Assembly: GCA_947037125.1 (NCBI GenBank)
Contig: CAMQTJ010000021.1
Span: 1-35,122, forward strand
Reading direction: 5' to 3'
From: an uncultured Holdemania sp.
Lineage (GTDB): Bacteria; Bacillota_I; Bacilli_A; Erysipelotrichales; Erysipelotrichaceae
DNA length: 35,122 nucleotides
In this document: piece by piece, positions 14,347 to 32,735 of the stretch
Layout: every line of letters begins with the position of its first letter
How positions within the stretch are numbered: the first letter of the stretch is position 1
Notes under the pieces: model-generated
Seen by the model: the letters and a program-made list of their open reading frames with translations, nothing else
Database searches by the model: none
Told to the model about the DNA's origin: nothing
Program-made: the position numbers and the translations under genes

Positions 14347-14348
14347 AT

Positions 14349-14396: not shown

Positions 14397-14555
14397 GAAA
14401 AATGAAACTTATTATTTTAGTACAATATATGTACAAGGTAATAAGTTTTTTTTACCTTACAACACTGTAAGTTATTAGCTGATATTGTAAGTTAGAGTTA
14501 TGGTTAGCGTTATTTGTTTAATATAAAATATATATGTAAGATGGAGGCAGTTTAT

Positions 14556-15374: not shown

Positions 15375-15377
15375 GTT

Positions 15378-16424: not shown

Positions 16425-17188
16425 TGTATAGTTTAAAATTAAAGAAAAATACAATCTATCGTGGTGACTTAATACTAGTAAATAGTACATATGCATATCA
16501 TGAAATAAATGAGTATAGTAATAATAGTGTTAGTGTTGGTGGTAATATTTTTTTAAACAATAATGTTGCAATAGCATTAGCTAAAATTATGTTAGCGATT
16601 AATGCTTTTGATAAAATTAGTTTTGTGAGTGGACTTAGAAGTAATGTTGAACAAAGTGAAATTTATAATAAATCTTTACTTGAAAATGGAGAAGACTTTA
16701 CAAAAAAATATGTTGCTTTACCAAATCATAGTGAACATCAAACAGGTATGGCAATTGATTTAGGGGTTAAAAAAGAAAATATTGATTTTCTTTGTCCACA
16801 ATTTTTAGATACAGGAATTTGTAAAGAATTTTTAAACAATTGTCACAATTATGGTTTCATCAGACGTTATCCACAAGATAAAGAAATGATCACTTTAATT
16901 GCATATGAGCCATGGCATTTTCGCTATGTTGGTTATCCACATTCAAGTATAATCAAAAAATTAAAAATCACTTTAGAAGAGTATCACAATTTAATTCAAA
17001 AATATTCTTATAACACCAATAATTATATATATAAAAGTTGCAACCTAATATTTGAAATTGGTTATTTAAAAGCAAGTGATTTAGCTTATACGCAAATAGA
17101 TGTGGAAAATAAAGATTTTTTTTCAATATCAGGTGATAATCAAAATGGTTTTATTATTACAAAGTGGCGTGAATTTAATGAAAAATAA
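16424..17188 (+). CDS. vanXY: D,D-dipeptidase/D,D-carboxypeptidase VanXY
   Basis: Zinc peptidase of 254 residues that removes D-Ala-D-Ala dipeptide and terminal D-Ala, so that only D-Ser-ended precursors persist. The active site is complete: SEHQTGMAIDLG gives zinc ligands His105 and Asp112, and YEPWHFRYVG gives catalytic Glu162 and ligand His165. VSGLRSNVEQSEIYNKSL holds the conserved Arg and Glu-Gln that bind substrate. There is no signal peptide or membrane anchor, so it is cytoplasmic as expected for VanXY rather than membrane VanY. The ~70-residue C-terminal tail after PHSSIIKKLKITLEEY is present in VanXY-G-type proteins. The ATG overlaps the vanG stop codon (TAATG). Confidence 0.9.
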   Translation: MYSLKLKKNTIYRGDLILVNSTYAYHEINEYSNNSVSVGGNIFLNNNVAIALAKIMLAINAFDKISFVSGLRSNVEQSEIYNKSLLENGEDFTKKYVALPNHSEHQTGMAIDLGVKKENIDFLCPQFLDTGICKEFLNNCHNYGFIRRYPQDKEMITLIAYEPWHFRYVGYPHSSIIKKLKITLEEYHNLIQKYSYNTNNYIYKSCNLIFEIGYLKASDLAYTQIDVENKDFFSISGDNQNGFIITKWREFNEK

Positions 17189-18668
17189 TATTAGTAAAAA
17201 ATATTTAAATACAATTACTTTATTAATTATATTTTCACTCTTTTTAACACTAGTACAAATTGGTGGTAATAGTATTTCATTTAATCAAACAAATATTATA
17301 TTGGGGTTGTTGGCAACATTATTTTTATATCAAATTATTTTATTTTGGGGTGTAAAATCATATAAACAAAGTTTTATATTAATATTACTTACATATTTAT
17401 TTATTCCATTTTTTATATTATTTATAACATTTATTAGTAAATTATTTGACTTAAATGATATTTTTATATCAAATTCATTTAATTATAATCTAATTGTATT
17501 TGGTTTATCATTTATTTGTGCTGATTTAATTAGTAAAGTTAAATGGTCTAATAACACATGTTATCAAAAATCTAGGGCATGGGTTGAATTAGATATGAAA
17601 GCCTTCGATCATAATATAAATGTACTTAAAAGTAAAATAAATAATGATTGTAATATAATGGGGGTTATTAAGGCTAATGCTTATGGACATGGTGATGTGA
17701 TTATTGCGAAAGCATTGAATAAGAATGGTATTAGATTTTTTTGTGTAGCTACTATTTTTGAGGCGATTAAACTTAGAAAAGATAAGATAACAGGTGAAAT
17801 ACTTATTTTTGGTTATACTCCACCTGAATTGTTTTATCTGCTTAAAAAATATGATTTAACTCAAAGTATAATGGATTATGAATATGCAATTAAATTAAAT
17901 GATTATAATAAAAATATTAAAGTTCATTTAGCACTTGATACTGGAATGCACAGAGTTGGAATTAATTGTGATAATTTTGATGATATAAAAGCTATTTTCA
18001 AATTAAAAAAACTGAAGGTAAAAGGTATATATACTCATCTTTGTGCCAGTGATTCACAAGCTTTAAGTGATCGAAAATTTAGTATTGACCAATGTGATAA
18101 AATAATTGGTATTAGTGATCGATTAAAAGAATTAAATTTCAAGTTTAAATTACATATTATTAGTACTTGTGGTTTAATCAACTATCCCGATTATGCAATG
18201 GATTATGTAAGAATAGGTATTGCTTTATTTGGAGTTACAAGTAAGCAAGATGATATGACACCTGATTATGATTTACACCCAGTATTAAGCTTAAAAGCAC
18301 GAGTAATCAGTATAAAAAATTTAAAAGTTAATGAGGGTGCTGGATATAGTTGGGATTTTATTGCCCAAAAAACAAGTGTTATAGCAACGGTTTCAATTGG
18401 TTATGCTGATGGGATATCACGTAGTCTTAGTAAAAATGGTTATGTTTTAATTAATGGTAAAAAAGCTAAAATAGTTGGTAAGATGTGTATGGATTTAATG
18501 TTAGTTGATGTGAGTGGTATTGATGTGAACATTTTTGATATTGTTACACTTATTGGGAAAGATGAAGGTTTACAAATAAGTGTCTATGACATAGCTAATC
18601 AAACAAATACAATTACAATTGAAACAGTAAGTGCACTATCTGATAGATTAGAAAGAGTAATAAAATAA
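17178..18668 (+). CDS. vanT: VanT-like serine racemase with a short membrane domain
   Basis: PLP-dependent racemase that supplies D-Ser (496 residues). The N-terminal ~125 residues have about four transmembrane helices (near 11-30, 40-58, 65-88, 104-118). The racemase domain starts near residue 133 with SRAWVELDMKAF; it has the PLP lysine in GVIKANAYGHG, DTGMHRVG, the catalytic tyrosine in GAGYSWDF and MCMDLMLVDVSG. Known VanT proteins are about 700 residues with ten or more helices, so this is a compact form. Ile481 (in NTITIETVS) aligns by eye with Tyr354 of alanine racemase, which is Asn in VanT of vanG. I choose ATG 17178, overlapping vanXY by 11 nt. A plain alanine racemase activity cannot be excluded. 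Confidence 0.87.
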   Translation: MKNNISKKYLNTITLLIIFSLFLTLVQIGGNSISFNQTNIILGLLATLFLYQIILFWGVKSYKQSFILILLTYLFIPFFILFITFISKLFDLNDIFISNSFNYNLIVFGLSFICADLISKVKWSNNTCYQKSRAWVELDMKAFDHNINVLKSKINNDCNIMGVIKANAYGHGDVIIAKALNKNGIRFFCVATIFEAIKLRKDKITGEILIFGYTPPELFYLLKKYDLTQSIMDYEYAIKLNDYNKNIKVHLALDTGMHRVGINCDNFDDIKAIFKLKKLKVKGIYTHLCASDSQALSDRKFSIDQCDKIIGISDRLKELNFKFKLHIISTCGLINYPDYAMDYVRIGIALFGVTSKQDDMTPDYDLHPVLSLKARVISIKNLKVNEGAGYSWDFIAQKTSVIATVSIGYADGISRSLSKNGYVLINGKKAKIVGKMCMDLMLVDVSGIDVNIFDIVTLIGKDEGLQISVYDIANQTNTITIETVSALSDRLERVIK

Positions 18669-18750: not shown

Positions 18751-18779
18751 TTGACATTTTTTATATAACGTTATATGAT
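18751..18779 (+). promoter_or_regulatory. Promoter with internal palindromic operator for the PTS operon
   Basis: TTGACA (18751-18756), 17 bp, TATGAT (18774-18779): a near-consensus sigma-A promoter. A perfect 14-bp palindrome ATATAACGTTATAT (18763-18776) fills the spacer and enters the -10 box, an ideal place for a repressor. The adjacent GntR-type regulator is the likely ligand. Confidence 0.75.
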
Positions 18780-18813
18780 GTCTTATGTAATTAGGGCGGT
18801 GGAAGGAGTAAAT

Positions 18814-19542
18814 ATGAGTAAACTTAGTAGTAATAGTTCGGAACCACTATATGTGCAATTAATGATAAATATTAAAAATGATATAAAAAATGGTATTTAT
18901 AAAATTGGAGATCAATTACCTAACGAAGAAATATTAGGAGAAACATTTGGTGTTAGTAGAATAACAGTGCGTAGTGCAATAACTCAATTGGTAAAAGAAG
19001 GAGTTGTTGTAAAAAAAAGAGGAAAAGGAACATATGTATCTTTGCCTATATACGTTGAAAGCTTATCATCAGGTGGAAGTTTTAGTGAATCATGCATTCA
19101 GATGAAAGCGGTACCAAGCACGGTGATACAATCAAAAATGATAGTTAAGGCAGATTTAAATATTTCAAAATATTTAGGTGTTCAACTTGGTGATAGTGTA
19201 ATAAGAGTAATAAGAATACGACTAGTTAATAATATAGAAACAATAGTAGAACTTGATTATTTTAATAAAGATTTTGAGTTTTTATTTGAATGTGATATGT
19301 GTGAAAAGCCTTTAGGAGAAATAATGTTTAATGAAATTGGTTCAACAATAGAAAAATTTGAAGATTACTTTAGTGTTTGTAAAGCTTCTAAAGAAATTTC
19401 AGAAATGTTGAAATGCAATATAGGAAAGCCATTACTTGTTATAGATCAAATTGTATTAGGTAAAGACAATTGTATTATTTATTATAATAAACAATATATT
19501 ATGAGTGATCACTATACATGTTCTTTAACAACGTTTAAATAG
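18814..19542 (+). CDS. GntR family (HutC/UTRA) transcriptional regulator
   Basis: A 242-residue repressor-type regulator. The N-terminal winged helix (about 5-72) reads PLYVQLMINIKNDIKNGIY, QLPNEEILGETFGVSRITVR and KRGKGTYV. The C-terminal UTRA ligand-binding domain (about 90-240) normally senses a sugar phosphate or other small effector. I choose ATG 18814 because GGAAGGAG lies 6 nt upstream and because an earlier in-frame ATG at 18775 falls inside the promoter -10 box. It is the first gene before a mannose-family PTS and is only 8 bp from EIIA, so it probably autoregulates and senses the transported or phosphorylated compound. Confidence 0.92.
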   Translation: MSKLSSNSSEPLYVQLMINIKNDIKNGIYKIGDQLPNEEILGETFGVSRITVRSAITQLVKEGVVVKKRGKGTYVSLPIYVESLSSGGSFSESCIQMKAVPSTVIQSKMIVKADLNISKYLGVQLGDSVIRVIRIRLVNNIETIVELDYFNKDFEFLFECDMCEKPLGEIMFNEIGSTIEKFEDYFSVCKASKEISEMLKCNIGKPLLVIDQIVLGKDNCIIYYNKQYIMSDHYTCSLTTFK

Positions 19543-19550
19543 GAGGAAAA

Positions 19551-19964
19551 ATGAGAAAAATAATTATTGCAACACATGGAGATTTTGCTTCTGGTATTAA
19601 AAATTCATTAACTATGATTGCAGGAGATTTAGCTAATGATATAAAAATTTACTGTTTATATCCTGGAGCAAGTGCAACGGAGTTTGCAGACGAATTAAGA
19701 ATAGAAATAATCGAAAATAGCGAAGTTGAATATATTATATTAACAGATTTATTTGGCGCAAGTGTATGTACGGCGATGTCATTACTTACAATTTATACTA
19801 ATGTAGTAGTATTAGCTGGACTAAATTTAAATATTGCACTTGAAGTATTATTAGGCAAATCAACTAAATTAACAAGTGATGATATAGATGATTTATTACA
19901 AAGTGCAAAAGATGGTATTCAACAAATAAAATTAAATACAGAAATTATAGAAGAGGATTTTTAG
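19551..19964 (+). CDS. PTS mannose/sorbose-family EIIA component
   Basis: Cytoplasmic phosphocarrier of 137 residues that takes phosphate from HPr and passes it to EIIB. The phosphorylated histidine is visible in the N-terminal IIIATHGDFASGIKNSL (His9), and the conserved LTDLFGASVCTAMS stretch follows near residue 66. The length fits a free-standing EIIA-Man domain rather than an EIIAB fusion. AGGAGG is about 5 nt before the ATG. The gene is followed by a BtpA-like protein and then EIIB, EIIC and EIID on the same strand with very short gaps. Confidence 0.94.
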   Translation: MRKIIIATHGDFASGIKNSLTMIAGDLANDIKIYCLYPGASATEFADELRIEIIENSEVEYIILTDLFGASVCTAMSLLTIYTNVVVLAGLNLNIALEVLLGKSTKLTSDDIDDLLQSAKDGIQQIKLNTEIIEEDF

Positions 19965-19973
19965 GAGCGTATG

Positions 19974-20711
19974 ATGAAAAAAAATTTTTTAGAAATATTT
20001 AGAAATAAAAAACCGATATTTGCAATGCTTCATCTTAAGGGCGATAATTCACAAGAGATTTATGAAAGAGCAATAGTCGAAATTGAAAAATACATTAATG
20101 GTGGTGCAGATGCAATAATTGTAGAAAATTATTATGGAAATTATTATGATATGGAACGCGTGTTGACTTATTTGCAATCTAGTGAAATTAATATTCCTTA
20201 TGGTGTAAATTGCCTAAATATGGATGCGATGGGATTTGATTTAGCTAAACGTTTCAATGCAAGCTTTGTTCAATTAGACTCTGTTGCAGGTCATTTAAAA
20301 CCACGAGATGATTTTTCTTTTGAAGCATTCATGAATAAATATCGTAGTGATTTTAATGGGTATGTAATTGGTGGAGTTAGATTTAAATATCAACCATATT
20401 TATCACAAAGAACAGTTGAACAAGATTTGATTATTGGTATGAGTCGTTGTGATGCAATAGTAGTAACACAAGATAAAACTGGCGAAGAAACATCACTGGA
20501 TAAAATTATAGAGTTTAGAAATATAATTGGTAATTTCCCTCTAGTTATTGGAGCAGGATTAACACCAGAAAATTGTGAAAAACAGTTTGATTATGCGGAT
20601 GCATCGATAGTTGGTAGCTATTTTAAAGATACATATGTTGATACAGGTGATGTTGATATAAAACATGTAGAAACAATGATAGATGCTGTAAGAAAAATTA
20701 GGGAGAAATAA
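19974..20711 (+). CDS. BtpA/SgcQ family TIM-barrel protein
   Basis: A 245-residue protein of the BtpA/SgcQ family, predicted TIM barrel. Visible features are IFAMLHLKGDN at the start, the conserved GGADAIIVENYYGNYY, FVQLDSVAGHLKPRDD, CDAIVVTQDKTGEETS and LVIGAGLTPENCEKQF followed by ASIVGSYFK, which looks like a phosphate-binding end of a barrel. SgcQ sits in a PTS-linked sugar cluster in E. coli; its reaction is not established. Here it is the only likely metabolic enzyme in the PTS operon and may act on the imported phosphorylated compound. I choose ATG 19974, 6 nt after AGGAG; ATG 19971 is also possible. Confidence 0.85.
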   Translation: MKKNFLEIFRNKKPIFAMLHLKGDNSQEIYERAIVEIEKYINGGADAIIVENYYGNYYDMERVLTYLQSSEINIPYGVNCLNMDAMGFDLAKRFNASFVQLDSVAGHLKPRDDFSFEAFMNKYRSDFNGYVIGGVRFKYQPYLSQRTVEQDLIIGMSRCDAIVVTQDKTGEETSLDKIIEFRNIIGNFPLVIGAGLTPENCEKQFDYADASIVGSYFKDTYVDTGDVDIKHVETMIDAVRKIREK

Positions 20712-20714
20712 TAT

Positions 20715-21194
20715 ATGATTAAATGTGTAAGAGTTGATCATCGTCTATTGCATGGACAAGTAGCGTTTTCTTGGACTAAATTTTTAGATGCTGATTGTAT
20801 TTTAATTGCTAGTGATAATTTAATGAATGACGAACTTAAAATGAGTGCAATAAGACTTGCCAAGCCTACAGGGGTTAAACTTGTAATGAAAAGCATGCAA
20901 GATTCTATCAAGGCACTTAATTCAGGAATAACAGATAAATATAACTTATTTATAATTATCGAAAGTATAGAAGATGTATTTAAACTTACTAATGAAGTAG
21001 CAGCTATTACATCAGTCAATATAGGCGGAATGAAAAATGAAGAAGATAGGAAACAACTATCAAAAGCAGTTTATGTAAGTGCTAAAGATATTGAATTAAT
21101 CAAGATCATGAGTAGTAAAAATATTGAATTGGAAGTAAGACTTGTACCAAGTGAAACCAAAAAAAATATAATGGATCTTATAAAGGGAGAATAA
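20715..21194 (+). CDS. PTS mannose/sorbose-family EIIB component
   Basis: A 159-residue phosphocarrier that receives phosphate on His from EIIA and transfers it to the sugar during transport. The hallmark RVDHRLLHGQVAFSW gives the phosphorylated His14 or nearby His (HGQV). The remaining sequence, with ADCILIASDNLMNDELKMSAIRLA and the central SVNIGGMK, is typical of EIIB-Sor/Man. The substrate cannot be told from the sequence; relatives carry mannose, sorbose, fructose, fructosamines or N-acetylgalactosamine. AGGGAG precedes the ATG and the gene lies 3 bp after the BtpA-like gene. Confidence 0.94.
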   Translation: MIKCVRVDHRLLHGQVAFSWTKFLDADCILIASDNLMNDELKMSAIRLAKPTGVKLVMKSMQDSIKALNSGITDKYNLFIIIESIEDVFKLTNEVAAITSVNIGGMKNEEDRKQLSKAVYVSAKDIELIKIMSSKNIELEVRLVPSETKKNIMDLIKGE

Positions 21195-21197
21195 AAT

Positions 21198-21971
21198 ATG
21201 AATACAAATTTAGTTGTACAATCATTACTAATAGTGTTAGTTGCATTTATTAGTTATATGCATTGTTATATAGGGTCAACTATGTCAAATCGTCCAATAA
21301 TTGTAGCACCTCTTGTAGGGCTTGTATTGGGGGATTTAACACTTGGGATACAAATAGGTGCTACTTTGGAATTAATATTTCTTGGAGCAGTACCAATTGG
21401 GGCATCAAATCCACCAGATATGGTATCTGGAACTATTATAGGTACATCATTTGTTATTTTATCTGGTTCAAATATTGGTGCAGCAGTAGCACTTGCAGTT
21501 CCAGTTGCGACACTTGTTTTATTATTTGATAATTTATTGATGATGTTTGTTCTAACATCTTCAAGTCATATGGCAGATAAATACGCAAAATTAGGTGACT
21601 ATAAGGCGGTAGAAAGAATTGTTGTTTTATCATCAATTGGTAATAAATTAATATTAGCATTAGTAGTAGGTTTTGCATTTTATATTGGAATACCTGTAAT
21701 TGAACAAGTACTTGAAGTAATACCGGCATTTATTATAACAGGAATGGATGTTGCAGCTGGTATGTTGCCTGCAATAGGTTTTGCAATGTTAGCGAAAATG
21801 TTACTTACAAAGGAATTGTTTGCATACTTACTTGCTGGTTTTTTACTAGCAGCATATTTCCAATTACCAGTATTTGGAATTGCTTTAGTAGGATTAGTTA
21901 TAGCATTGTTGATTTTTCATACTAAAACAGGAAATAATATGGAGGTAAATGTTGATGACAACGAATTCTAA
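21198..21971 (+). CDS. PTS mannose/sorbose-family EIIC permease
   Basis: Polytopic membrane subunit of 257 residues that forms the sugar channel with EIID. It is hydrophobic almost throughout and carries the EIIC-Man signature: NRPIIVAPLVGLVLGDL followed by GIQIGATLELIFLGAVPIGA. The last residues (NMEVNVDDNEF) are polar and cytoplasmic. The 3' end overlaps the EIID gene by 17 nt, consistent with coupled translation of the two membrane subunits. Confidence 0.94.
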   Translation: MNTNLVVQSLLIVLVAFISYMHCYIGSTMSNRPIIVAPLVGLVLGDLTLGIQIGATLELIFLGAVPIGASNPPDMVSGTIIGTSFVILSGSNIGAAVALAVPVATLVLLFDNLLMMFVLTSSSHMADKYAKLGDYKAVERIVVLSSIGNKLILALVVGFAFYIGIPVIEQVLEVIPAFIITGMDVAAGMLPAIGFAMLAKMLLTKELFAYLLAGFLLAAYFQLPVFGIALVGLVIALLIFHTKTGNNMEVNVDDNEF

Positions 21972-22794
21972 TAAAAAGACAGTAGAATCAAATTCTTTAA
22001 TAACAAAAAAAGATTGGTGGCAAGTATTTAGAAGATCTTGTACGCTTGATGCTGCTTGGAACTATGAAAGACAACAAAATATGAACTATTGTTACGCAAT
22101 GATACCAATATTAAAAAGATTATATGGCAATGATAAAGAAAAAATGGCTGAAGCATTACAAAGACATTTAGAATTTATGTCATGTACACCTCATGTTGTA
22201 TCATTATTAATGGGAATAACAGGTGCGATGGAAGAAGAAAATGCAAATAATGAGAATTTTGAAGCATCATCAATAAGCGCCGTAAAAACTTCTTTAATGG
22301 GGCCGATGGCCGGAATTGGTGATTCATTCTTTTGGGGAACTTTATTAACAATTGCTATAGGGATTGGTGTTTCCTTCTCAACAGTCGGAAGTATAGTAGG
22401 GCCAATTGCGTTTTTACTAATTATTAATATTCCAGGATTTTTATCAAGATATTATTGCTTAGATTTTGGATTTAAATATGGAGTTAAGTTTTTCGCTAAT
22501 ATGGATGGAAATGATGTAGTAAGCAAATTAACTAAAGTAGCTTCAATTGTGGGATTAATGGTTATAGGTGGTATGATTGCTACCACAGTTAGTATTCAAA
22601 TACCACTTGAAGTTGGTGTAGAAGGAGCAATGGCGTCAATACAATCATACATTGATCAAATTATGCCAGGATTATTACCATTATGTTTAACTGGTGGAAT
22701 ATATTATTTACTTGGTAAAAACATTAAAACAACGACTATACTTTTATGGATTATTGTAATTTCTTGTTTAGGTGTTCTTGTAGGAATCCTATAA
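21955..22794 (+). CDS. PTS mannose/sorbose-family EIID permease
   Basis: Second membrane subunit of the transporter, 279 residues. Diagnostic motifs: TKKDWWQVFRRSCTLDAAWN at the N-terminus, NYERQQNMNYCYAMIPILKR, then SAVKTSLMGPMAGIGDSFFW, followed by hydrophobic helices. I choose ATG 21955, 9 nt after GGAGG (21941-21945); the in-frame ATG at 21949 is only 3 nt from that site. It is the last gene of the operon. The terminator shared with the convergent regulator gene lies about 115 bp downstream. Confidence 0.94.
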   Translation: MTTNSNKKTVESNSLITKKDWWQVFRRSCTLDAAWNYERQQNMNYCYAMIPILKRLYGNDKEKMAEALQRHLEFMSCTPHVVSLLMGITGAMEEENANNENFEASSISAVKTSLMGPMAGIGDSFFWGTLLTIAIGIGVSFSTVGSIVGPIAFLLIINIPGFLSRYYCLDFGFKYGVKFFANMDGNDVVSKLTKVASIVGLMVIGGMIATTVSIQIPLEVGVEGAMASIQSYIDQIMPGLLPLCLTGGIYYLLGKNIKTTTILLWIIVISCLGVLVGIL

Positions 22795-22968: not shown

Positions 22969-23676
22969 TTATTTAAAATAATAAGTTTTTAACTGATTAA
23001 TTCTTGTTTTCATTAATTTACTCATAAGGGCACCTGCACGTTCACTTTGTTTGTTTTCAATTGCATCAATTAATTCTTGCATGAATATATTATTGGCTGA
23101 TGAATCAATATTATTAAAGACGATTTCACTAAACAATAAATTAAGTTTTGAAAACGAATTACAAACTAAAGAATAGATATTATTTTGTGTTGCATAATAA
23201 ATAGCTTTTTGAAATTCTAATTTTAATTCCGCTAGCATTTTTGGATTGCTTGCATTTTGCATTTGTTTATGTAAATCTCTAAGAATTACTACATCTTCAT
23301 CTGTACGATTTTTTGCTGCAAGATATGCACATTCACTATCATTATATAAACGATAAGCCATCAAAGAATCAAAGGTTTTTCGATCAAGTAATCCACCATG
23401 AAAATTAATGATTGCAAGCAGTGTATCTATATTACCATTTCTGGTATAATCCGCAACAAATGCACCAACTCGTGGTTCAATTGTGATAAATCCAGTCTTT
23501 TCTAATTCCTTTAAACCTGAGTTTATTATGGTCTTACTAACTTTCATTTTTGCTTCCATTATTCTTTGAGGAGGTAATTTTTCACCTACCACAAGGTCTC
23601 CTGAGATTATTTTTTTAGTTATTTCACTTACAAATAGCTCTTTTAAAGTTGGTGCAACAATTTCATTAAATTCCAT
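22969..23676 (-). CDS. FadR-type (GntR/FCD) transcriptional regulator
   Basis: A 235-residue regulator with an N-terminal winged helix (about 10-75: LFVSEITKKIISGDLVVGE, KLPPQRIMEAKMKVSKTII, FITIEPRVGAFVADY) and an all-helical C-terminal FCD-like domain (about 90-235). Such proteins usually bind organic acids or related effectors. I choose ATG 23676; an in-frame TTG at 23703 has no ribosome binding site. Even so, the site before ATG 23676 is only a weak AGGAAAAGAG. The gene is divergent from the hypB operon across about 150 bp, and TGGTCTGACCA (23692-23702) lies in its own leader, so it likely controls itself and perhaps the operon. Confidence 0.87.
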   Translation of the reverse strand: MEFNEIVAPTLKELFVSEITKKIISGDLVVGEKLPPQRIMEAKMKVSKTIINSGLKELEKTGFITIEPRVGAFVADYTRNGNIDTLLAIINFHGGLLDRKTFDSLMAYRLYNDSECAYLAAKNRTDEDVVILRDLHKQMQNASNPKMLAELKLEFQKAIYYATQNNIYSLVCNSFSKLNLLFSEIVFNNIDSSANNIFMQELIDAIENKQSERAGALMSKLMKTRINQLKTYYFK

Positions 23677-23691
23677 ATTTATCTCTTTTCC

Positions 23692-23702
23692 TGGTCTGAC
23701 CA
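23692..23702. promoter_or_regulatory. FadR-family operator palindrome
   Basis: TGGTC-T-GACCA is a perfect inverted repeat matching the general FadR-family site TGGTCNGACCA. It sits directly upstream of the FadR-type start codon, overlapping the probable transcription start region on the minus strand. Confidence 0.65.
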
Positions 23703-23785
23703 AACATCATAGTTATATTTTATCAAATAAATCACAAATAAGCTAGTACAATTGTGAAAAAATTAATGTAATACTTTTTTTAACC

Positions 23786-23831: not shown

Positions 23832-24503
23832 ATGAAAGCGTTTAAAATTCTAGAAATAAAAGAGAGTGTTTTTAAAAACAACAATCAACAAGCTGATTTA
23901 TTAAGAGCAGAATTAAAAGAGAAAAAAGTATTTTTATTAAACTTAATGTCATCACCAGGATCTGGTAAGACAACAACGCTTACTAAATTAATACCATTGT
24001 TACAAAAAGATTTGAAAGTAGGGGTAATGGAAGCGGACATCGACAGTGATGTGGATGCTGTTACAATTGAAAAAACAGGGGCAAAAGTTATTCAACTTCA
24101 TACAGGTGGTATGTGTCATTTAGATGCTGATATGACACGTCAAGGTATGAATGGTTTAGGGGTAGATGATATTGATGTGGTTATCTTAGAAAATGTTGGA
24201 AATTTAGTCTGTCCTGCAGAATTTGATACAGGATCAGTAAAAAATGCAATGATTTTAAGTGTTCCTGAGGGGGATGATAAACCATTAAAGTATCCATTAA
24301 TGTTTACTATTTGTGATTTATTATTAATTAATAAAATTGATGTATTAGAGCATTTTGATTTTGATGTGAATAAATGTAAAGAAAGAGCTTTAAAGCTTAA
24401 TCCAAATATTAAGATTATTGAAATATCATCAAGAACAGGATTTGGGGTTGAAGAAGCATCACAATGGTTACTTGCACAAGTTAAACAATGGGGAGAATAC
24501 TAA
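23832..24503 (+). CDS. hypB: HypB-type nickel-insertion GTPase
   Basis: SIMIBI-class GTPase of 223 residues that, with HypA, delivers nickel to a target enzyme, classically [NiFe]-hydrogenase. The Walker A motif SSPGSGKTTT (residues 40-49) is intact. Switch and metal-site residues are visible: EADIDSDVDA, Cys95-His96 in GGMCHLDADM and Cys127 in NVGNLVCPAEFD, which match the G-domain nickel/zinc site of HypB. NKID at about 178-181 is the guanine-specificity motif. There is no N-terminal CxxCGC or His-rich nickel-storage stretch. AGGAG is about 6 nt upstream. The stop overlaps the next ATG, so the fusion enzyme is coupled. No hydrogenase gene occurs in the window. Confidence 0.93.
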   Translation: MKAFKILEIKESVFKNNNQQADLLRAELKEKKVFLLNLMSSPGSGKTTTLTKLIPLLQKDLKVGVMEADIDSDVDAVTIEKTGAKVIQLHTGGMCHLDADMTRQGMNGLGVDDIDVVILENVGNLVCPAEFDTGSVKNAMILSVPEGDDKPLKYPLMFTICDLLLINKIDVLEHFDFDVNKCKERALKLNPNIKIIEISSRTGFGVEEASQWLLAQVKQWGEY

Positions 24504-27184
24504 TGGCTGAAGTTAAATTAAAAGTATTAGAATTTGCAAACAAAGTTACAAGAACTAAAATGGGTAGCAAAAATGGAATAACAGTAGAAGATCCAAGATA
24601 TTATATAATGGAGCCTGTAATTACTGATGAAATGGCTGAAGTTGCATTGTGTATGGAATTTAGAGTTCCAAAATCAATTCCTGAATTAGCTAAATTATCA
24701 AACAAATCAGTAGAATTAACACATAAATTAGTTTGGGAACTTGCAGATCATGGAATATGTCTTGTAGATAGTAAATCTGGTGAAGATAGATTTTGGTATG
24801 AATTATGGGTTCCAGGAATTATGGAAATGATGTGTAATAATAAAGAAAACGTAAGAAAATATCCACAAATAGCGAAGGCATTTGAAGAGTATGGAAGAAT
24901 TCTTGGACCAAAAAGTATTGGTAAGTTTCCAATGGGTGTTGGAGTTATGCGTGTTATACCTATTGAAAGAGCAATTGATGGAGAAACAAGAAAAGCATCA
25001 TATGAAGAGATTTCAGGTTATTTAGAAGGTGCTTATCGTTATTCGGTATCTGATTGTTCTTGTCGTACATCAAGAGAAGCACTTGGTGAAGGTTGTGGAC
25101 ATTTAAAAGAGGATATGTGTATTCAATTAGATCATGCAGCTGAATATTATATTAGAACTAATAAGGGGCGTGAAATTACAAAAGCTGAAGCTTATGAAAT
25201 TATTCGTAGAGCTGAAGATAATGGATTAATGCACCAAATTCCAAATCTTGATGGATCAGGAAAAACGCATGCAATTTGTAATTGTTGTGGTTGTTCATGT
25301 TATGCAGTAAGAATTGGTAACATGTTTAAAAATACTGATATGATCAGAAGTAACTATCTTGCGAAAATTGATAAAGATAAATGTGTTGCATGTGGTGAAT
25401 GTGTTGAAAACTGTCCAACTAATGCTTTAAAACTTGGTCAAAAACTATGTACAATTAAGCCAATCAAAGAAAAGAAAATTGAAACTCCTCGTAACATGGA
25501 GTGGACACCTGATCGTTTCAATACTGATTATCGTACAAATCGTGATGATGTTGTAGATTCTGGAACAAGTCCATGTAAGACTAATTGTCCTGCACATATT
25601 TCAATTCAAGGATATATTAAATTAGCGTCACTTGGTAAATATAAAGAAGCATTAGAGTTAATTAAGCACGAAAACCCATTTCCTGCTGTATGTGGACGTA
25701 TTTGTCCAAGATCATGTGAATCAGCATGTACAAGATCTGATATTGATGAACCTATCGCAATTGATGAAATTAAAAAGTTTATAGCTGAACAAGACTTAAA
25801 TGAAAATAATCGTTTTATTCCAAAAATTAAACATGATTATGAAGAAAAAATTGCAATTATTGGAGCAGGTCCTGCTGGTTTATCATGTGCATATTATTTA
25901 GCGGTACATGGTTATAAAGTTACTGTGTTTGAAAAACATGAAAAATTAGGTGGAATGCTTACTTTAGGAATACCAAGTTTTAGATTAGAAAAAGATGTTG
26001 TATCTGCAGAAATCGAAATCTTAAAAGCATTGAATGTTGAATTTAAGACAGGTGTTGAAGTTGGTACTGATGTAACACTTGATGAATTAAGAACTCAAGG
26101 ATTTAAAGGATTTTATGTTGCAGTAGGTGCACAACTTGGTCGAAAATTAAACATTGAAGGTGAAAATAGCCAAGATGTAATATCTGGTGTTGATTTTTTA
26201 GTTAATACAAACTTAGGAAAACAAGATGAAATCAGCGGTAAAGTAGTAGTAATTGGTGGTGGTAATGTTGCAATTGACGTTGCTCGTGTTGCTGTAAGAT
26301 GTGAAAATACTTCAGTTAATATTTTCTGTTTAGAAAATCGTGAACAAATGCCTGCTCTTGTTGAAGAAATTGATGAAGCCTTAAGTGAAAATATTGTTAT
26401 CAATAATTCATATGGACCTGTAAAAATTATCTTAGATGATAATAATAAAGTTACAGGTGTACTATTTAAAAAATGTTTAAGTGTCTTTGATGCAAACAAA
26501 AAGTTTGCTCCAGTATATGATGAAAATGACACAATAGTTGTTGAATGTGAAAAAGTATTAATCTCTGTTGGTCAAGCAATTGATTATAAAAATTTATTTG
26601 TTGGAAGTGATGTAACTTTTAATCCAAATAATACAATTATTGCTGATGGATTTACTTTCCAAACTAATCAAAAAGACATCTTTACAGGTGGAGATTGTTA
26701 TACAGGACCACGCTTTGCAATTGATGCAATAGCATCAGGAAAACAGGGTGCTATATCACTTCATCGTTTTGTAAAAGTTGGACAAAGTTTAGTTAATGGT
26801 CGTGACAGACGTCTATACCATAGTTTTGATAAAGAAAATCTTAATCTAGATAGTTATGATGTTGCCCATAGAGCAAGTGTTAAACATAATCATGATACAG
26901 ATAAGTTTAAAGATAACCGTCTTGTTATTACCGAGGCCGATATGCTTAAAGAAACAAAGCGTTGTCTTGGATGTGGTGCAAGTGTTATTGATGAATATAT
27001 GTGTATTGGTTGTGGTCAATGTACTACTAAGTGTAAATTTGATGCAATTAAATTAGTTCGTGTTTATGATAATAAATCACTAGTTTATGAAGACGTTAAA
27101 CCTGCTGTTGTAAAGCATGTTATTAAACGTCAAGGTAAAATTGCAATTAAAAAAATTAAAGATATCTTTGATAGTGGGGAATAA
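24503..27184 (+). CDS. Multidomain Fe-S/flavin oxidoreductase (GltD-like fusion)
   Basis: An 893-residue soluble fusion. Residues 35-105 look like a winged-helix domain (SIPELAKLSNKSVELTHKLV). A Cys-rich part follows with CSC (185-187), Cys198, Cys206, CNCCGCSC (259-266) and a ferredoxin motif CVACGECVENCP (294-305). Residues 355-440 carry the GltD-like N-terminal cluster (CKTNCPAH, CGRICPRSCESAC). The FAD domain begins with IIGAGPAGLSCAY (near 454) and the NAD(P) domain has VVVIGGGNVAIDVA (near 583). The C-terminus has more Fe-S Cys (CLGCG at 821; CIGCGQCTTKC at 834-844). It resembles glutamate synthase small subunits and NfnB-like electron transfer flavoproteins, but the full architecture is not one I can name. 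ATG 24503 overlaps the hypB stop. Confidence 0.88.
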   Translation: MAEVKLKVLEFANKVTRTKMGSKNGITVEDPRYYIMEPVITDEMAEVALCMEFRVPKSIPELAKLSNKSVELTHKLVWELADHGICLVDSKSGEDRFWYELWVPGIMEMMCNNKENVRKYPQIAKAFEEYGRILGPKSIGKFPMGVGVMRVIPIERAIDGETRKASYEEISGYLEGAYRYSVSDCSCRTSREALGEGCGHLKEDMCIQLDHAAEYYIRTNKGREITKAEAYEIIRRAEDNGLMHQIPNLDGSGKTHAICNCCGCSCYAVRIGNMFKNTDMIRSNYLAKIDKDKCVACGECVENCPTNALKLGQKLCTIKPIKEKKIETPRNMEWTPDRFNTDYRTNRDDVVDSGTSPCKTNCPAHISIQGYIKLASLGKYKEALELIKHENPFPAVCGRICPRSCESACTRSDIDEPIAIDEIKKFIAEQDLNENNRFIPKIKHDYEEKIAIIGAGPAGLSCAYYLAVHGYKVTVFEKHEKLGGMLTLGIPSFRLEKDVVSAEIEILKALNVEFKTGVEVGTDVTLDELRTQGFKGFYVAVGAQLGRKLNIEGENSQDVISGVDFLVNTNLGKQDEISGKVVVIGGGNVAIDVARVAVRCENTSVNIFCLENREQMPALVEEIDEALSENIVINNSYGPVKIILDDNNKVTGVLFKKCLSVFDANKKFAPVYDENDTIVVECEKVLISVGQAIDYKNLFVGSDVTFNPNNTIIADGFTFQTNQKDIFTGGDCYTGPRFAIDAIASGKQGAISLHRFVKVGQSLVNGRDRRLYHSFDKENLNLDSYDVAHRASVKHNHDTDKFKDNRLVITEADMLKETKRCLGCGASVIDEYMCIGCGQCTTKCKFDAIKLVRVYDNKSLVYEDVKPAVVKHVIKRQGKIAIKKIKDIFDSGE

Positions 27185-27187
27185 ACA

Positions 27188-27529
27188 ATGCATGAATTAA
27201 GTATTTGTTATGAAATTATTAAAAGTGTTGAACAAATAGTTATAGAAAATGAATTAGAAAAAGTAAGTAAAATAACTTTAGAAATAGGTGAATTATCAAC
27301 TATTGTAAAAAAATATTTATTAGATTGTTTTGCACCAGCTGTAGAAAATACTATGTTTGAAGATACAATCATTGAACTTGAAACAATTGAAGGTATTGCT
27401 ATTTGTAATGGTTGTACAACTAATTTTAATGTTATTAAAAATAATGGGTATTGTCCTAATTGTGGAATACGTGATATGGAAGTTATTAGTGGTAAAGAAT
27501 TTTTAATTAAAAGTATTGAAGCTTATTGA
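27188..27529 (+). CDS. hypA: HypA nickel metallochaperone
   Basis: A 113-residue nickel chaperone partner of HypB. The N-terminal MHELSICYEI supplies the nickel-binding Met-His-Glu. The structural zinc site shows Cys at IAICNGCTTNF and a CPNCG pair near residues 92-95, so two CxxC motifs. Length and order fit HypA/HybF. It is 3 bp after the fusion gene, with GTGGGGA upstream. Having hypA and hypB flank the Fe-S/flavin fusion suggests the fusion, or a nearby enzyme, needs nickel or uses these chaperones for another metal. A strong hairpin follows the stop codon. Confidence 0.93.
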   Translation: MHELSICYEIIKSVEQIVIENELEKVSKITLEIGELSTIVKKYLLDCFAPAVENTMFEDTIIELETIEGIAICNGCTTNFNVIKNNGYCPNCGIRDMEVISGKEFLIKSIEAY

Positions 27530-27606: not shown

Positions 27607-29136
27607 ATGCATTTTGATTCGATTATTATAGGGGCAGGTAATGGTGGTTTATCAGCAGCTACACGCCTTGCAACAAAGGGACAAAAAGTTTTAGTATTAG
27701 AAAGACACAATGTACCTGGAGGATGTGGAACAAGTTTTAGACGTGGACGTTTTGAATTTGAAGTAGCATTACACCAGTTAAGTTCAATGGGTTCTACAGA
27801 AAAGCCTGGAGATTTACGTAAATTATTTTCTGAATATGGTATTGAAGATAAGATTGATTGGATTGAAATTGAATCATTATATAAAGTAGTATTACCATCA
27901 GGTTTTACATGTGCACTACCTACTAATAGAGTTGATGCACAAAATGTCTTAATTGAAAGATTTCCTGAAGAAAAAGCAAATATTCTTCGTTATTATGAAG
28001 TTGTTTATAGCTTTTTTGATGAATCAGAAGACTTTGCAAAGGCACAAGCAAACTCAACTGGTGAACCAAGTGATCTTAAAAAGTTTGTAGTTAGTAAACT
28101 ATTTTCGAAAAAATACCCTACACTTGCAAAATATGCAATGAGATCTACACAAGATGTAATGGATGAATTCTTTAAAACTAAAGAGCTACAATTATGTTTG
28201 AATACTTATTGGTGTTTTATGGGTATGCCACCTGAAAGATTCCCATTCTCTATTTTAGCTAAATGTACAAGAATTTATATTGAAGATAAGCCTTATTATT
28301 TACGTGGTGGATCACAAGTAATTTCTCAAGCGTTGGTTGAATCAATTAAACAACATGATGGAATTGTGAAACTTAGTTGTGGTGTTAAACAAATTATCGT
28401 GAAAAATAAAAAAGCAGTAGGAGTTATTGATGAATTTGGTAATGAATATACATGTGATAATGTTATTTCAAATGCTTCACCTATTGACACATATTTTAAA
28501 TTATTAGACAAAAAAGATTTACCACAAAGTGCGATTGATCAATATCGTCAATATACAGTAGGTATTTCGGCACTTACATGTTTTATCGGATTAGATTGTC
28601 CACCTGATGAAATTGGTTTCACTGATTCATTTAACTTAATTTATGAAGATGCTGATTGTAATAATGCATTCAAAAATGCTTATGAATTAATGCCAACAAC
28701 AGATCCTTTAGTAACTACATGTTATACAGTTGATGATCCTAAAGTGTCACCTGAGGGAACTAGTGTAATTACAGCTGGTACTTTAAAATATGGTAAGGCG
28801 TGGATGGAACTTGCAGAAGATGAATATTATGATACAAAATATAAGGCTTGTGATATTATCATTGAGCGTTTAGAGAAAAAATTTAAGGGAATTAGAAGTC
28901 ATATTGAGGAAATTGAAATTGCAACACCATTAACTCATATGCATTATTTACATCATCCAGAAGGTTCCATTTATGGATTTGAACAAGATTTAAATCAATC
29001 AGTATTCTTCTTTCCAAGAGAAGACCAAATTGAAAACTTAACATTCGCAAATGGTTGGGTTAATGTTTGTGGGTTTGGACCAAATTATTTATATGGTGCA
29101 ACTGTAGCTGATGGTATTTTGAAAGGGGCAAAATAA
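27607..29136 (+). CDS. FAD-dependent phytoene desaturase/retinol saturase-like oxidoreductase
   Basis: A 509-residue flavoprotein of the CrtI/RetSat superfamily. The dinucleotide-binding motif is at the N-terminus (IIIGAGNGGLSAATRLA, residues 6-22, then VLERHNVPGGCGTSF). YLRGGSQVISQALVESI and a C-terminal NVCGFGPNYLYGATVADG are typical FAD contacts of this superfamily. These proteins reduce, desaturate or isomerise isolated or conjugated double bonds of hydrophobic substrates. No carotenoid-biosynthesis gene is nearby, so a carotenoid role is not supported. A reduction of a lipid, steroid, tetrapyrrole or isoprenoid double bond is possible. TAAGGAGG precedes the ATG. Its stop overlaps the next start. 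Confidence 0.8.
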   Translation: MHFDSIIIGAGNGGLSAATRLATKGQKVLVLERHNVPGGCGTSFRRGRFEFEVALHQLSSMGSTEKPGDLRKLFSEYGIEDKIDWIEIESLYKVVLPSGFTCALPTNRVDAQNVLIERFPEEKANILRYYEVVYSFFDESEDFAKAQANSTGEPSDLKKFVVSKLFSKKYPTLAKYAMRSTQDVMDEFFKTKELQLCLNTYWCFMGMPPERFPFSILAKCTRIYIEDKPYYLRGGSQVISQALVESIKQHDGIVKLSCGVKQIIVKNKKAVGVIDEFGNEYTCDNVISNASPIDTYFKLLDKKDLPQSAIDQYRQYTVGISALTCFIGLDCPPDEIGFTDSFNLIYEDADCNNAFKNAYELMPTTDPLVTTCYTVDDPKVSPEGTSVITAGTLKYGKAWMELAEDEYYDTKYKACDIIIERLEKKFKGIRSHIEEIEIATPLTHMHYLHHPEGSIYGFEQDLNQSVFFFPREDQIENLTFANGWVNVCGFGPNYLYGATVADGILKGAK

Positions 29137-30302
29137 TGGCAGATTTTAAGACAACGGTACTTAGTACCTTACAAAATGGTAAAAATGTTATTGAACAAAT
29201 TGATGCACTAAAGAAAACAGGTACAGATTATTCAATTAATGCTGATCGTACTGATAGAACAATTAATAAGTATCATAATGATAATTTAAAACTTAGAGTT
29301 AATGAAATCATTGAAGTAAATAAAGATGTTAAGACATTTAGATTAGTTAGTGATGATTGCATGTTGCCTGTATTTAAAAGTGGTCAATATTTAAATATCT
29401 TTACGGTAATTGAAGGAGTAAGAACTTCTCGTCCTTATTCAATTAGTTCTTCATCAAAACAACGAGCTTATTATGAACTAACAATTGCAAGAGTGCCTAA
29501 TGGTTTTGTTTCAAACTTTATGCTTAATGAAGTTAAATTAAATGATGTATTTGAAGCATCAAATCCAGCTGGTGAATTTGTCTTTAATCCAATTTTCCAT
29601 TCTGATAAATCAGTATTTATTGCAGGTGGTTCTGGTATTACTCCATTTATTTCAATGCTTAGTGAGGCTTTAGATAAAGGTCAAAAACGTAGCATTAAAT
29701 TAATTTATGGTTGTAAAGATTATGCAAGTGTATTATTTTTAGACTTATTACAAGAATATGCAAGCAAACATAGCAACTTTAGTTTTGATTTAGTATTAAC
29801 TAATAAAGATGAAAAAGTTGTAACTGAAGTTGGTTTTATTAATAAAGATATTATTAGTAAACTTGTACAAGATATTGATGATTCAACATTTTATATTTGT
29901 GGACCTCAAATCATGAATGATTTTGTTGTGAAACAATTAGAAGAATTAAAAGTTAAATCAAGATGGATTAGACGTGAAATGTTTGGTTCAAGTCCAAATA
30001 TTGTAACTGAAAATGGTTGGCCAGCAGAACTTAATGGTAGTGAAGTATTTACATTAACGATTAATAAAGATATTAAAGTTAAATGTAATGCTAATGAATC
30101 TTTACTTGTAGCTTTAGAAAGAAATAAAGTAAGAGTAAATGTTTGTTGTAGAAGTGGTGAATGTAGCTTATGTAAAGTTCAATTAGTTGCAGGTAATGTC
30201 TTCTTATCAAAAGGTAGTTTATTAAGACACTCTGATGAAAAATTTGGATTCATTCATTCATGTAAAGCATTCCCTATTAGTGATTTGGAAATAATTATAT
30301 GA
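29136..30302 (+). CDS. FNR-type NAD(P)H reductase with 2Fe-2S ferredoxin domain
   Basis: A 388-residue electron-transfer protein. After a helical N-terminal ~50 residues comes an FNR-like FAD domain with RPYSISS (99-105), a nucleotide-binding domain with AGGSGITP (163-170) and ICGPQIM (254-260), and a C-terminal 2Fe-2S domain with Cys338, Cys343, Cys346 and Cys376 (CRSGECSLC then HSC). This FAD-NAD-2Fe-2S order is that of oxygenase-type reductases and NADH:acceptor oxidoreductases. It probably passes electrons from NAD(P)H to the flavoprotein upstream or to the membrane partners downstream. The ATG overlaps the preceding stop (TAATG), and the stop overlaps the next ATG. Confidence 0.88.
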   Translation: MADFKTTVLSTLQNGKNVIEQIDALKKTGTDYSINADRTDRTINKYHNDNLKLRVNEIIEVNKDVKTFRLVSDDCMLPVFKSGQYLNIFTVIEGVRTSRPYSISSSSKQRAYYELTIARVPNGFVSNFMLNEVKLNDVFEASNPAGEFVFNPIFHSDKSVFIAGGSGITPFISMLSEALDKGQKRSIKLIYGCKDYASVLFLDLLQEYASKHSNFSFDLVLTNKDEKVVTEVGFINKDIISKLVQDIDDSTFYICGPQIMNDFVVKQLEELKVKSRWIRREMFGSSPNIVTENGWPAELNGSEVFTLTINKDIKVKCNANESLLVALERNKVRVNVCCRSGECSLCKVQLVAGNVFLSKGSLLRHSDEKFGFIHSCKAFPISDLEIII

Positions 30303-31081
30303 TGAATAAATACCTTGGTAAAATAAGTGGAAATGCATTTTTATTACTATTTACTATTGTTATTTTATTAATATCAGTTGGTTCGATGTATCAGCCAATT
30401 TATATTAACTTAGTTTTTAATGTTCTTATGCCAATTGCTGTTTTATTAACATTGAAGATGGTATTCTTTGAAAAAATGAAACTATCTACATTAGTTGTTA
30501 TGAGAACATTAATTGTATTAGCAGCATTCAATTTATTTGATGGTGATTTATATGTGAAAATTGTTATGATTTTCTTAGCAATTAATATTTTAGAAGCTAC
30601 AGTTACAGACTTTAAAATTAAAAAATATTATAATGTAATTTCAGGAATTGTTTTAACAATTACAATACCTTTAATTACAGCAACATGGCTTGGTGTATAT
30701 TATACAGCTACTACTGCAAATGTTATAGGGATCGTTTGTTGGATAGTTGCATATACAATTTGGAACTTTATATTTGTTACTAATGAATTTAGTGCAAGTG
30801 TTTCAAAGCTTCATGTTGGTATTTTAGCAACACCTTTAATCAGTATGCTATTATTAGGTAATCCAGGGTTTTGGTTATTAATTAGAGCTAATTCATTAAC
30901 TATTGGTGGTGTTATTCAAATCGCTAATAAACAATTTCTTGAAGAAAAACTTGAAAGTAGTGCATTTACTAAATTTGTTGCTGCAACAAAAAAAGATGGT
31001 GCTCAAATAGCATTTATGATTATCAATTTAGTTTTACTTGGCGTTATGGTTTATATACATTTTATGAAGGTGGGGATTTAA
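30299..31081 (+). CDS. Polytopic membrane protein, DUF5692-like (copy 1)
   Basis: A 260-residue integral membrane protein with about seven or eight hydrophobic helices and short loops. Family-type motifs shared with the following gene are NILEA (near residue 98) and WIVAYTIWNFIF (near 148). I recall such proteins as DUF5692, but that name is tentative. The function is unknown. Lying at the end of a redox operon, it could be a membrane electron or proton partner, or a transporter. No haem-binding His pair or quinone motif stands out. It overlaps the reductase gene by four nt (ATG at 30299; 30302 also possible), so it is coupled to it. Confidence 0.7.
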   Translation: MMNKYLGKISGNAFLLLFTIVILLISVGSMYQPIYINLVFNVLMPIAVLLTLKMVFFEKMKLSTLVVMRTLIVLAAFNLFDGDLYVKIVMIFLAINILEATVTDFKIKKYYNVISGIVLTITIPLITATWLGVYYTATTANVIGIVCWIVAYTIWNFIFVTNEFSASVSKLHVGILATPLISMLLLGNPGFWLLIRANSLTIGGVIQIANKQFLEEKLESSAFTKFVAATKKDGAQIAFMIINLVLLGVMVYIHFMKVGI

Positions 31082-31082: not shown

Positions 31083-32000
31083 ATGATGTTTGAAAGTATA
31101 CCAATGTCAACATGGTTAATGGCAGGTTTTGTATTATTCATGTTAGTATTTATTAATGAAATTACAAGAAGAAACAAATATGTTTCACTTGCGTTTTATT
31201 TAGTGTTACCAATTGTCTTAACAATATTTGTATGGCCAAATACATCAGGTAGTGGATCAACTTCTGGTTATTGGTTTGCATGGGTTAAAACATATTCATC
31301 ACTATCTGGTGTATTATGTTTTATGTATGTTAGACATAAAAAAGGTGCAGTAGCAAAATGGGTTTTATTGTTACCGGCAATTATCTTAGCAGTTAATATT
31401 TTAGAAGCTATTATGCGTGATATTGAATGTATGGGATTAAACACTATTGAAAATGGTTTAACGATCATTGGTGGTCCATGGAATGCAATAAATGCAGTTG
31501 CAGGTGTTATTAGTATTATAACAATTTCAGGTTGGATGGGAATTGTAATTAGTAAGAAAAAGAGTCAAGATATGATTTGGCCTGACCAATCAATTTATTG
31601 GGTAATTGCTTATTCAATTTGGAATTTATCATATTGTTTAAATTGTATTTCTGATCGTGCATTTTATGCAGCTGTGCTACCTTTAATTGCATGTTTAATC
31701 GCAGAATTGTTCTTTAGAAAAGGGGCATGGTTACAACATCGTGCACAAACTTTAGCTTTATGGGCGATGTTTACTTTAACAATACCAGCTTTTGCAAGCA
31801 CATCACAATTTGCTGTTGCTAGTGCAAATAATGAAACAGCATTATTAGTTATAAGTATTTTATCTTTAGTATCTAATTTAGGTGTATTAGTTTATGAAAT
31901 TATCACAATTAAAAAACATAAACGTAATGTTTTTAAGCAAGATGTTTATGTAAATAGTAAATTTTATAAAGATGCTTTAATTGATAATGATTTAGCTTAA
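31083..32000 (+). CDS. Polytopic membrane protein, DUF5692-like (copy 2)
   Basis: A 305-residue protein with about eight hydrophobic segments, evidently related to the preceding one: both have NILEA followed by a polar stretch, and WVIAYSIWNLSY here against WIVAYTIWNFIF there. It has an extra central loop (MRDIECMGLNTIENGLTII) and a cytoplasmic C-terminal tail of about 40 residues rich in Lys and Asp. There is no enzymatic motif. Two paralogues in tandem suggest a heterodimeric membrane complex. The ribosome binding site AAGGTGGGG lies inside the 3' end of copy 1. This is the last gene of the operon. Confidence 0.7.
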   Translation: MMFESIPMSTWLMAGFVLFMLVFINEITRRNKYVSLAFYLVLPIVLTIFVWPNTSGSGSTSGYWFAWVKTYSSLSGVLCFMYVRHKKGAVAKWVLLLPAIILAVNILEAIMRDIECMGLNTIENGLTIIGGPWNAINAVAGVISIITISGWMGIVISKKKSQDMIWPDQSIYWVIAYSIWNLSYCLNCISDRAFYAAVLPLIACLIAELFFRKGAWLQHRAQTLALWAMFTLTIPAFASTSQFAVASANNETALLVISILSLVSNLGVLVYEIITIKKHKRNVFKQDVYVNSKFYKDALIDNDLA

Positions 32001-32234: not shown

Positions 32235-32735
32235 ATGGATAAAATTATATTTGAATGGAAAAAGTTAATTATTAAGCGAAAACATGTTGCAATGGTTATT
32301 TGTTTGCTTATGTTATTTCTATTATTATTTTCATGTAGTAATAATACAATAATTAAAGAAGATGATAATCTAACAGATGAAAAAATGAAAAGTCCTTGTT
32401 ATTCGATGAAATTTATGATGAATAATCTAAATGATTTGATTGCATCAAGTAATTTATGTACAAACCAATGGAAAGAAGATGTGGATGACTATAATAGTAG
32501 ATTAGAGGCATATACAAAACTATTGAAAAAAACCGAATTGAAAAATCATGAACAAATAAAAATTCAAGAGCAATTATTTATTGACTTAATTGAATTGGTT
32601 GAAGTACAAAATTACCAAACATTAGGTAATGTTGAAAAAACATTTTTTGAATATAAAAAGCATTATGAAAATAGATGCTTAGTTGAATATGAATATAATT
32701 TTAGTGAGGATATAAATGATGAAGAAAATAATTAA
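32235..32735 (+). CDS. Small membrane-anchored or lipoprotein-like protein
   Basis: A 166-residue protein I do not recognise. A basic start (WKKLIIKRKH) leads into a hydrophobic segment (about 18-33) ending LLLFSCSNN, which could be a lipobox with Cys34 or a simple membrane anchor. The outer part is charged and helical (SRLEAYTKLLKKTELKN, then KTFFEYKKHYENR) with three further Cys. The GGGAG site fixes ATG 32235. The 3' end overlaps the start of the RHS-like gene by 20 nt, so it is probably coupled to it. By position it could be a secretion partner, chaperone or immunity factor, which is conjecture. Confidence 0.7.
   Translation: MDKIIFEWKKLIIKRKHVAMVICLLMLFLLLFSCSNNTIIKEDDNLTDEKMKSPCYSMKFMMNNLNDLIASSNLCTNQWKEDVDDYNSRLEAYTKLLKKTELKNHEQIKIQEQLFIDLIELVEVQNYQTLGNVEKTFFEYKKHYENRCLVEYEYNFSEDINDEENN

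Follow-up and report, generated by a model that had tools for sequence, protein, structure and literature searches.

An IsrA-like multidomain reductase gene between hypB and hypA in an uncultured Holdemania sp. with a candidate HypAB-matured six-cysteine site

IsrA of the acetogen Acetobacterium wieringae ISORED-2 is a putative isoprene reductase of 901 residues that was found via proteomics (Kronen 2023, PMC10134865). It is encoded in a five-gene operon, confirmed by reverse transcription PCR, which is induced by isoprene and includes hypA and hypB (PMC10134865). Among the neighborhoods of 988 IsrA homologues, hypA was present in ~73%, hypB in ~56%, and DUF5692 in ~40% (PMC10134865). The same authors hypothesized a site of six cysteines (Cys6, cluster V) in IsrA, and suggested both nickel at this site and possible electron bifurcation (PMC10134865). 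The operon also encodes a separate 4Fe-4S protein (VUZ27135.1, ENOG4105DQ9) that aligns with the first ~270 residues of IsrA (PMC10134865). Apart from Kronen 2023 and Jin 2022, our literature searches found no paper on the IsrA family. Here we analyze a gene for an IsrA-like protein of 893 residues, carried on a stretch of 35,122 nucleotides (the window) from an uncultured Holdemania sp. (assembly GCA_947037125.1, contig CAMQTJ010000021.1).

As judged from the published description of IsrA, the window gene is most likely a member of the IsrA family (clade 9 of Kronen et al.), since its length, domain order, and cysteine spacing fit that description. Both proteins have ~900 residues, an N-terminal region without a known domain, two CxC pairs, a Cys6 site, a ferredoxin motif, a DPD domain II, an FAD/NAD(P) domain, and a C-terminal ferredoxin motif. 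The CxC pairs stand at residues 180/182 and 254/256 in IsrA, compared with 185/187 and 259/261 here, a constant offset of five (PMC10134865). Likewise, hypA and hypB adjoin both genes, DUF5692 genes are frequent near homologues, and the IsrA host resembles the window’s host in having no NiFe-hydrogenase or hypCDEF (PMC10134865). The isr operon contains two hypA genes, hypB, and the separate 4Fe-4S protein, whereas the window operon contains one hypA, one hypB, a RetSat-like flavoenzyme, an FNR-Fd reductase, and two DUF5692 genes. The substrate of the window protein may also differ from that of IsrA. A sequence-only reading of the window had considered the fusion unusual. This does not hold, given the 102 fused loci collected here and the 988 homologues of Kronen et al. 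(PMC10134865); the architecture is neither unique nor unusual. It had already been described, as IsrA of clade 9, and the family is uncharacterized, with a role that is still putative.

We estimate at roughly 60% the probability that the window protein uses NAD(P)H to reduce conjugated C=C bonds at a Cys6 site that is matured by HypAB and probably contains nickel. In the proposed mechanism, NAD(P)H would donate hydride to the single flavin adenine dinucleotide (FAD) of the GltD-like module. Electrons would then travel singly through four [4Fe-4S] clusters and arrive at a fifth metal site, located in the N-terminal domain, where six invariant cysteines, perhaps with His244, would serve as ligands and the alkene would be reduced. 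HypB and HypA would mature this site, most likely through nickel insertion. The FAD would be of the non-bifurcating StnC type, and the substrate would probably be a conjugated polyene or a polyunsaturated lipid.

The domain order is winged helix, cysteine-rich core, ferredoxin, GltD-like FAD/NAD(P) module, and C-terminal Fe-S motif. Open reading frame (ORF) analysis, Pfam, motifs, and AlphaFold2 all bear out the single-frame fusion of 893 residues that had been proposed from the sequence; an alternative in-frame ATG upstream, at position 24488, would lengthen the product to 898 residues. The profile search recovered Fer4 (residues 288-310), Fer4_20 (355-434), and Pyr_redox_2 (449-746), and no Pfam family matched residues 1-280. 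The AlphaFold2 model of the full protein, built from a 56-homologue alignment, reached a predicted local distance difference test (pLDDT) score of 91.2 and a predicted template modeling (pTM) score of 0.91. In Foldseek, the GltD-like part was nearest to NfnABC, StnABC, NfnL, and GltD.

A full-length alignment was obtained with 55 homologues. Of the 35 cysteines in the protein, 22 are invariant in 56 homologues (the scope of invariance throughout, except where stated), and the architecture is therefore not due to chance. Sixteen are the canonical ligands of four clusters: two ferredoxin motifs (294/297/300/304 and 834/837/840/844) and the GltD-type cluster pair (358, 362, 397, 401, 405, 409, 821, 824). 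The remaining six form an extra site, composed of CxCR (185, 187), C206, CNC (259, 261), and C266, and are invariant in all 126 sequences of the domain. The dense CNCCGCSC cluster noted in the sequence-only reading was correct in part: C259, C261, and C266 are invariant, while C262 and C264 are cysteines in only 29 of 56 homologues. As these two positions vary, we rejected the block as a five-cysteine ligand set. His244 is invariant in the 56 fused homologues.

Genomic evidence supports the earlier suggestion that the cysteine cluster is served by HypAB. The hypA and hypB genes flank 87 of the 102 fused loci. In a comparison set of 60 related genomes (15 with the fused gene, 45 without), HypA scored above cut-off in 14 of the 15 compared with five of the 45 (P = 9e-9). 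Of these five, G031 carries both a NiFe-hydrogenase and HypD. Both are absent from the remaining four (G013, G040, G045, G058), which encode a free-standing Cys6 plus ferredoxin protein of 367-387 residues with hypB-hypA directly after it. A free-standing subgroup with its own hypB-hypA was recovered at loci L101-L104 and L117. Since hypB-hypA also follow the free-standing form, in genomes that lack both NiFe-hydrogenase and HypD, the chaperones track the Cys6 domain and not the GltD part. For the separate 4Fe-4S protein, no association with HypA or HypB was found by Kronen et al. (PMC10134865); the linkage of the free-standing Cys6 form to hypAB therefore appears to be new. The free-standing homologues of VUZ27135.1 found here keep all six cysteines and have no GltD/FAD module.

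The window’s own genome (95.7% complete) contains no NiFe-hydrogenase, HypD, LarA, or prismane/CODH gene; urease and other nickel enzymes were not searched. The adjoining HypB keeps the motif GMCHLDADM, C95 (of CHLD), and C127, and HypA has an MHE start (the nickel site) and two CxxC motifs (C73-C76, C89-C92). Taken from these gene associations, the Cys6 domain is supported as the HypAB client, and genomic linkage to HypAB suggests that nickel is probably bound there. As a separate observation, downstream of the Cys6 protein and hypB-hypA at L101-L103 and L117 lies an Old-Yellow-Enzyme/2,4-dienoyl-CoA-reductase-like gene (639-667 codons; Pfam for L101), another type of double-bond reductase.

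The neighborhoods of the family provide clues to its substrates. Homologues of PDB entry 2b9w, which we take to be the Propionibacterium acnes linoleate isomerase, recur beside fused genes and match the entry over their length (E = 1.9e-59, 3.8e-135, and 2.8e-114). They occur within 6 kb of 12 of the 58 non-redundant members, with at least nine gains or losses on the tree. Among the related genomes, linoleate isomerase is present only where the fused gene occurs (5/5; P = 5e-4), adjoining it in two (G005, G024). The isomerase is a partner and not a homologue of the fusion, and its homologues adjoin many family members. The assignment of 2b9w is drawn in part from PMC2885616. Oleate hydratase lies near two further members, and was also noted in A. 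woodii by Kronen et al. (PMC10134865). Neighbor families other than hypAB vary between loci.

On the basis of the repeated linoleate-isomerase neighbors, these gene contexts suggest that the IsrA family has a role in hydrogenating unsaturated lipids. In many relatives, the adjoining isomerase would create the conjugation. In the window, a RetSat/CrtI-like flavoenzyme would be the partner instead, together with an NAD(P)H:[2Fe-2S] reductase of its own and a pair of DUF5692 membrane proteins. This flavoenzyme may act on polyenes, by homology; carotenoid isomerase and phytoene desaturase models match it below cut-off. At L063, L067, and L068, the isomerase, RetSat-like gene, FNR-Fd gene, and fused reductase gene are grouped, which ties the window’s own partner genes to a lipid context. 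What this analysis adds is the recurrent association with isomerases of fatty-acid double bonds, along with the assignment of the Cys6 domain as the HypAB client.

Several findings weigh against an IsrA-type alkene reductase with nickel at the Cys6 site. In the literature, we found no purified family member, IsrA included, with proven activity or metal. Folded alone, the Cys6 core was modeled with moderate confidence and matched no known fold. Neither linoleate isomerase (E <= 1e-15) nor oleate hydratase was found in the window’s own genome, making the fatty-acid link indirect here; a fatty-acid substrate is thus not claimed for this strain, and its substrate may therefore be another polyene. 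Eighteen free-standing homologues that lack hypAB in their vicinity also share all six invariant cysteines (L105, L106, L109-L116, L119, L120, L122-L127; 417-447 residues, with one 344-residue copy near a contig edge), and the Cys6 site can thus evidently exist without dedicated chaperones. The window HypA falls below the hydrogenase cut-off of the NCBIfam hypA equivalog (75.6 vs 88.1). Residue 244 is histidine in every fused or hypAB-linked form (108/108) and glutamine in every free-standing form that lacks hypAB (18/18). This co-occurrence is suggestive of nickel; however, the tree resolves three deep clades that equal the three domain groups, such that the His/Gln split represents one change and His244 is not independent evidence.

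The last points bear on whether the same reductase could carry an ordinary or unusual Fe-S cluster at the Cys6 site, with HypA and HypB acting elsewhere or delivering another metal. The invariant cysteines of the hypAB-free forms and the low HypA score are in line with such an enzyme. Against it, two diverged forms of the domain both show close linkage to hypAB, no other known nickel client was detected in the window’s genome among the families tested, and glutamine replaces His244 exactly in the forms without hypAB. We regard this nickel-free version as rather unlikely, though it deserves consideration.

The GltD-like module can be compared with solved structures, of which StnC of StnABC (8oh5) and NfnA of NfnABC (9bov, 9n5u) are the nearest. 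Both share with the window protein the same lysine (K170 in StnC) at the FAD-adjacent cluster and an RCLxCG segment past the FAD/NAD domain. NuoG/FdhF-like domains and partner subunits set the two apart from the window protein, which carries the winged helix and Cys6 domain. NfnL of NfnSL (5jca, 4ylf) likewise has a GltD-like FAD/NAD(P) fold and two Fe-S clusters, but the window protein has lysine in place of its Glu126 ligand and additional domains at both ends. E126 is the site-differentiated ligand of the proximal cluster in NfnL (PMC9503767). In StnC, K170 seems to coordinate the FAD-adjacent cluster, and the authors conclude that the FAD is non-bifurcating (PMC10482914).

These comparisons address the proposal, made from the sequence and considered for IsrA by Kronen et al. 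(PMC10134865), of an Nfn-type enzyme whose FAD splits the electrons of NAD(P)H between ferredoxin and a higher-potential acceptor. Although the module is GltD/NfnL-like, the invariant K424 aligns with StnC K170 in a gap-free stretch and, in the NfnL alignment, with E126, a correspondence read off by counting alignment columns. Since K424 matches K170 in place of E126, bifurcation of the Nfn type is improbable, and we rejected it at the FAD on this residue. In addition, the sole FNR-family gene of the operon has a C-terminal plant-type 2Fe-2S domain (Fer2), and no NfnS-type gene was recognized in the operon; the rest of the genome was not searched for NfnS. The top NCBIfam matches, all GltD-like models, might instead indicate a glutamate synthase small subunit or a general NADPH:acceptor reductase with accessory domains. 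Their scores are far under the curated cut-offs (TIGR01316, 278 vs 471.75 bits; TIGR01318, 265 vs 483), and the genome has a separate GltD-type gene of 465 residues at C50, making this identity exceedingly improbable.

The winged-helix segment is a predicted fold, and DNA binding by it is putative. The N-terminal domain modeled by itself gave a pLDDT of 75.8. It matched winged helices over residues ~30-110, as the sequence had suggested, with middling scores (Z <= 7.9; 65 residues at 2.0 Å for BlaI). A fold search of the lone domain in PDB and viral libraries returned weak winged-helix matches only, and none for the Cys6 core. The resemblance to BlaI/MecI and ArsR/SmtB folds would suit a regulator that binds DNA through its winged helix and senses nickel or redox state at the cysteine site. 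Such a role is very improbable for a protein with a complete FAD/NAD(P) module and 22 invariant cysteines, encoded beside a separate GntR regulator and enzymes acting on lipids or polyenes.

The features of the locus are summarized in Table 1. The genes form a tight array: hypB overlaps the start of the fusion gene by a single base, hypA starts 3 bp downstream of the latter, and 77 bp separate hypA from the RetSat/CrtI-like gene. This gene overlaps the FAD-NAD-[2Fe-2S] reductase gene by one base, the first DUF5692 gene overlaps the reductase gene by four bases, and the second follows 1 bp on. Relatives of the GntR/FCD regulator occur near the fused gene at L030, L031, L033, L038, and L056.

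Table 1. Features of the IsrA-like reductase gene, its product, and the adjoining genes in the window.
Feature	Position	Strand	Evidence
IsrA-like multidomain reductase gene	24503..27184	+	Single open frame, 893 residues; Pfam, homologue alignment, predicted structure
Winged-helix-like segment, residues ~31-110	24593..24832	+	Predicted fold; VIA-align matches Z 6.6-7.9
Cys6 core, residues ~180-275 (C185, C187, C206, C259, C261, C266, H244)	25040..25327	+	Residue conservation
[4Fe-4S] ferredoxin motif C294-C304	25364..25432	+	Pfam Fer4; Cys invariant
GltD/DPD-type N-domain, two [4Fe-4S] clusters completed by C821 and C824	25565..25804	+	Pfam Fer4_20; 8 invariant Cys
FAD / NAD(P)H domain	25847..26740	+	Pfam Pyr_redox_2; Foldseek to NfnABC, StnABC, NfnL, GltD
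C821/C824 and C-terminal [4Fe-4S] motif C834-C844 (CIGCGQCTTKC)	26963..27034	+	Motif; Cys conservation
GntR/FCD-family regulator, divergent, 128 bp upstream of hypB	22969..23703	-	Pfam FCD, GntR
HypB, nickel-chaperone GTPase	23832..24503	+	NCBIfam hypB 246.4 bits vs cut-off 121.2
HypA, nickel metallochaperone	27188..27529	+	Pfam HypA 1.3e-29, 102.9 bits
RetSat/CrtISO/CrtI-like FAD flavoprotein	27607..29136	+	Pfam Amino_oxidase; PDB 4rep, 4dgk
NAD(P)H:ferredoxin-type reductase, FAD + NAD + plant-type 2Fe-2S	29136..30302	+	Pfam FAD_binding_6, NAD_binding_1, Fer2
DUF5692-like membrane protein	30299..31081	+	Pfam DUF5692 2.5e-9
DUF5692 membrane protein	31083..32000	+	Pfam DUF5692 4.7e-111

Elsewhere in the collection, tandem or near-tandem pairs of fused reductase genes lie in one operon at L037, L040, L067, L068, L074, and L079. 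A plasmid search returned four records, one fused and three free-standing, and no relative was found on the viral contigs searched. Beyond the operon, the window holds an ORF of 166 codons (32235-32735) with no Pfam or NCBIfam match. Positions 18775-22794 contain a sugar phosphotransferase system (PTS) operon with a BtpA gene inside (GntR/UTRA regulator, PTS mannose-family IIA, BtpA-family protein, IIB, IIC-like, IID). A response regulator, histidine kinase, VanW-like protein, D-Ala-D-Ala ligase family protein, VanY-type carboxypeptidase, and alanine racemase, the last with a 160-residue N-terminal extension (Pfam), are encoded at 12495-18668; by gene content, this looks like a van-type, glycopeptide-resistance-like cluster with a racemase. 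Two neighboring C5-cytosine methyltransferase genes, two proteins without a Pfam match, and a DEAD/ResIII helicase at 3042-9698 look like a candidate restriction-modification or defense locus. An ISL3-family transposase lies at 139-1560 on the reverse strand.

More broadly, and only tentatively, at less than even odds, the Cys6-(His) site may represent a nickel catalytic site of a new class, at which unactivated conjugated C=C bonds are hydrogenated, both in the form fused to a GltD module and in the free-standing form with its own HypBA. Combined with linoleate isomerases, it would give anaerobes of the gut and rumen an isomerize-then-reduce route for polyunsaturated fatty acids. One Butyrivibrio conjugated linoleic acid reductase gene was reportedly described in 2007. 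The IsrA family is widespread in anaerobes, with many of the 102 fused loci here originating from rumen genomes. If the link to linoleate isomerase is real, the family would provide concrete candidate genes for the reduction of conjugated fatty acids in the rumen and gut. If the link to HypAB means nickel, the small set of nickel enzymes would gain a further site.

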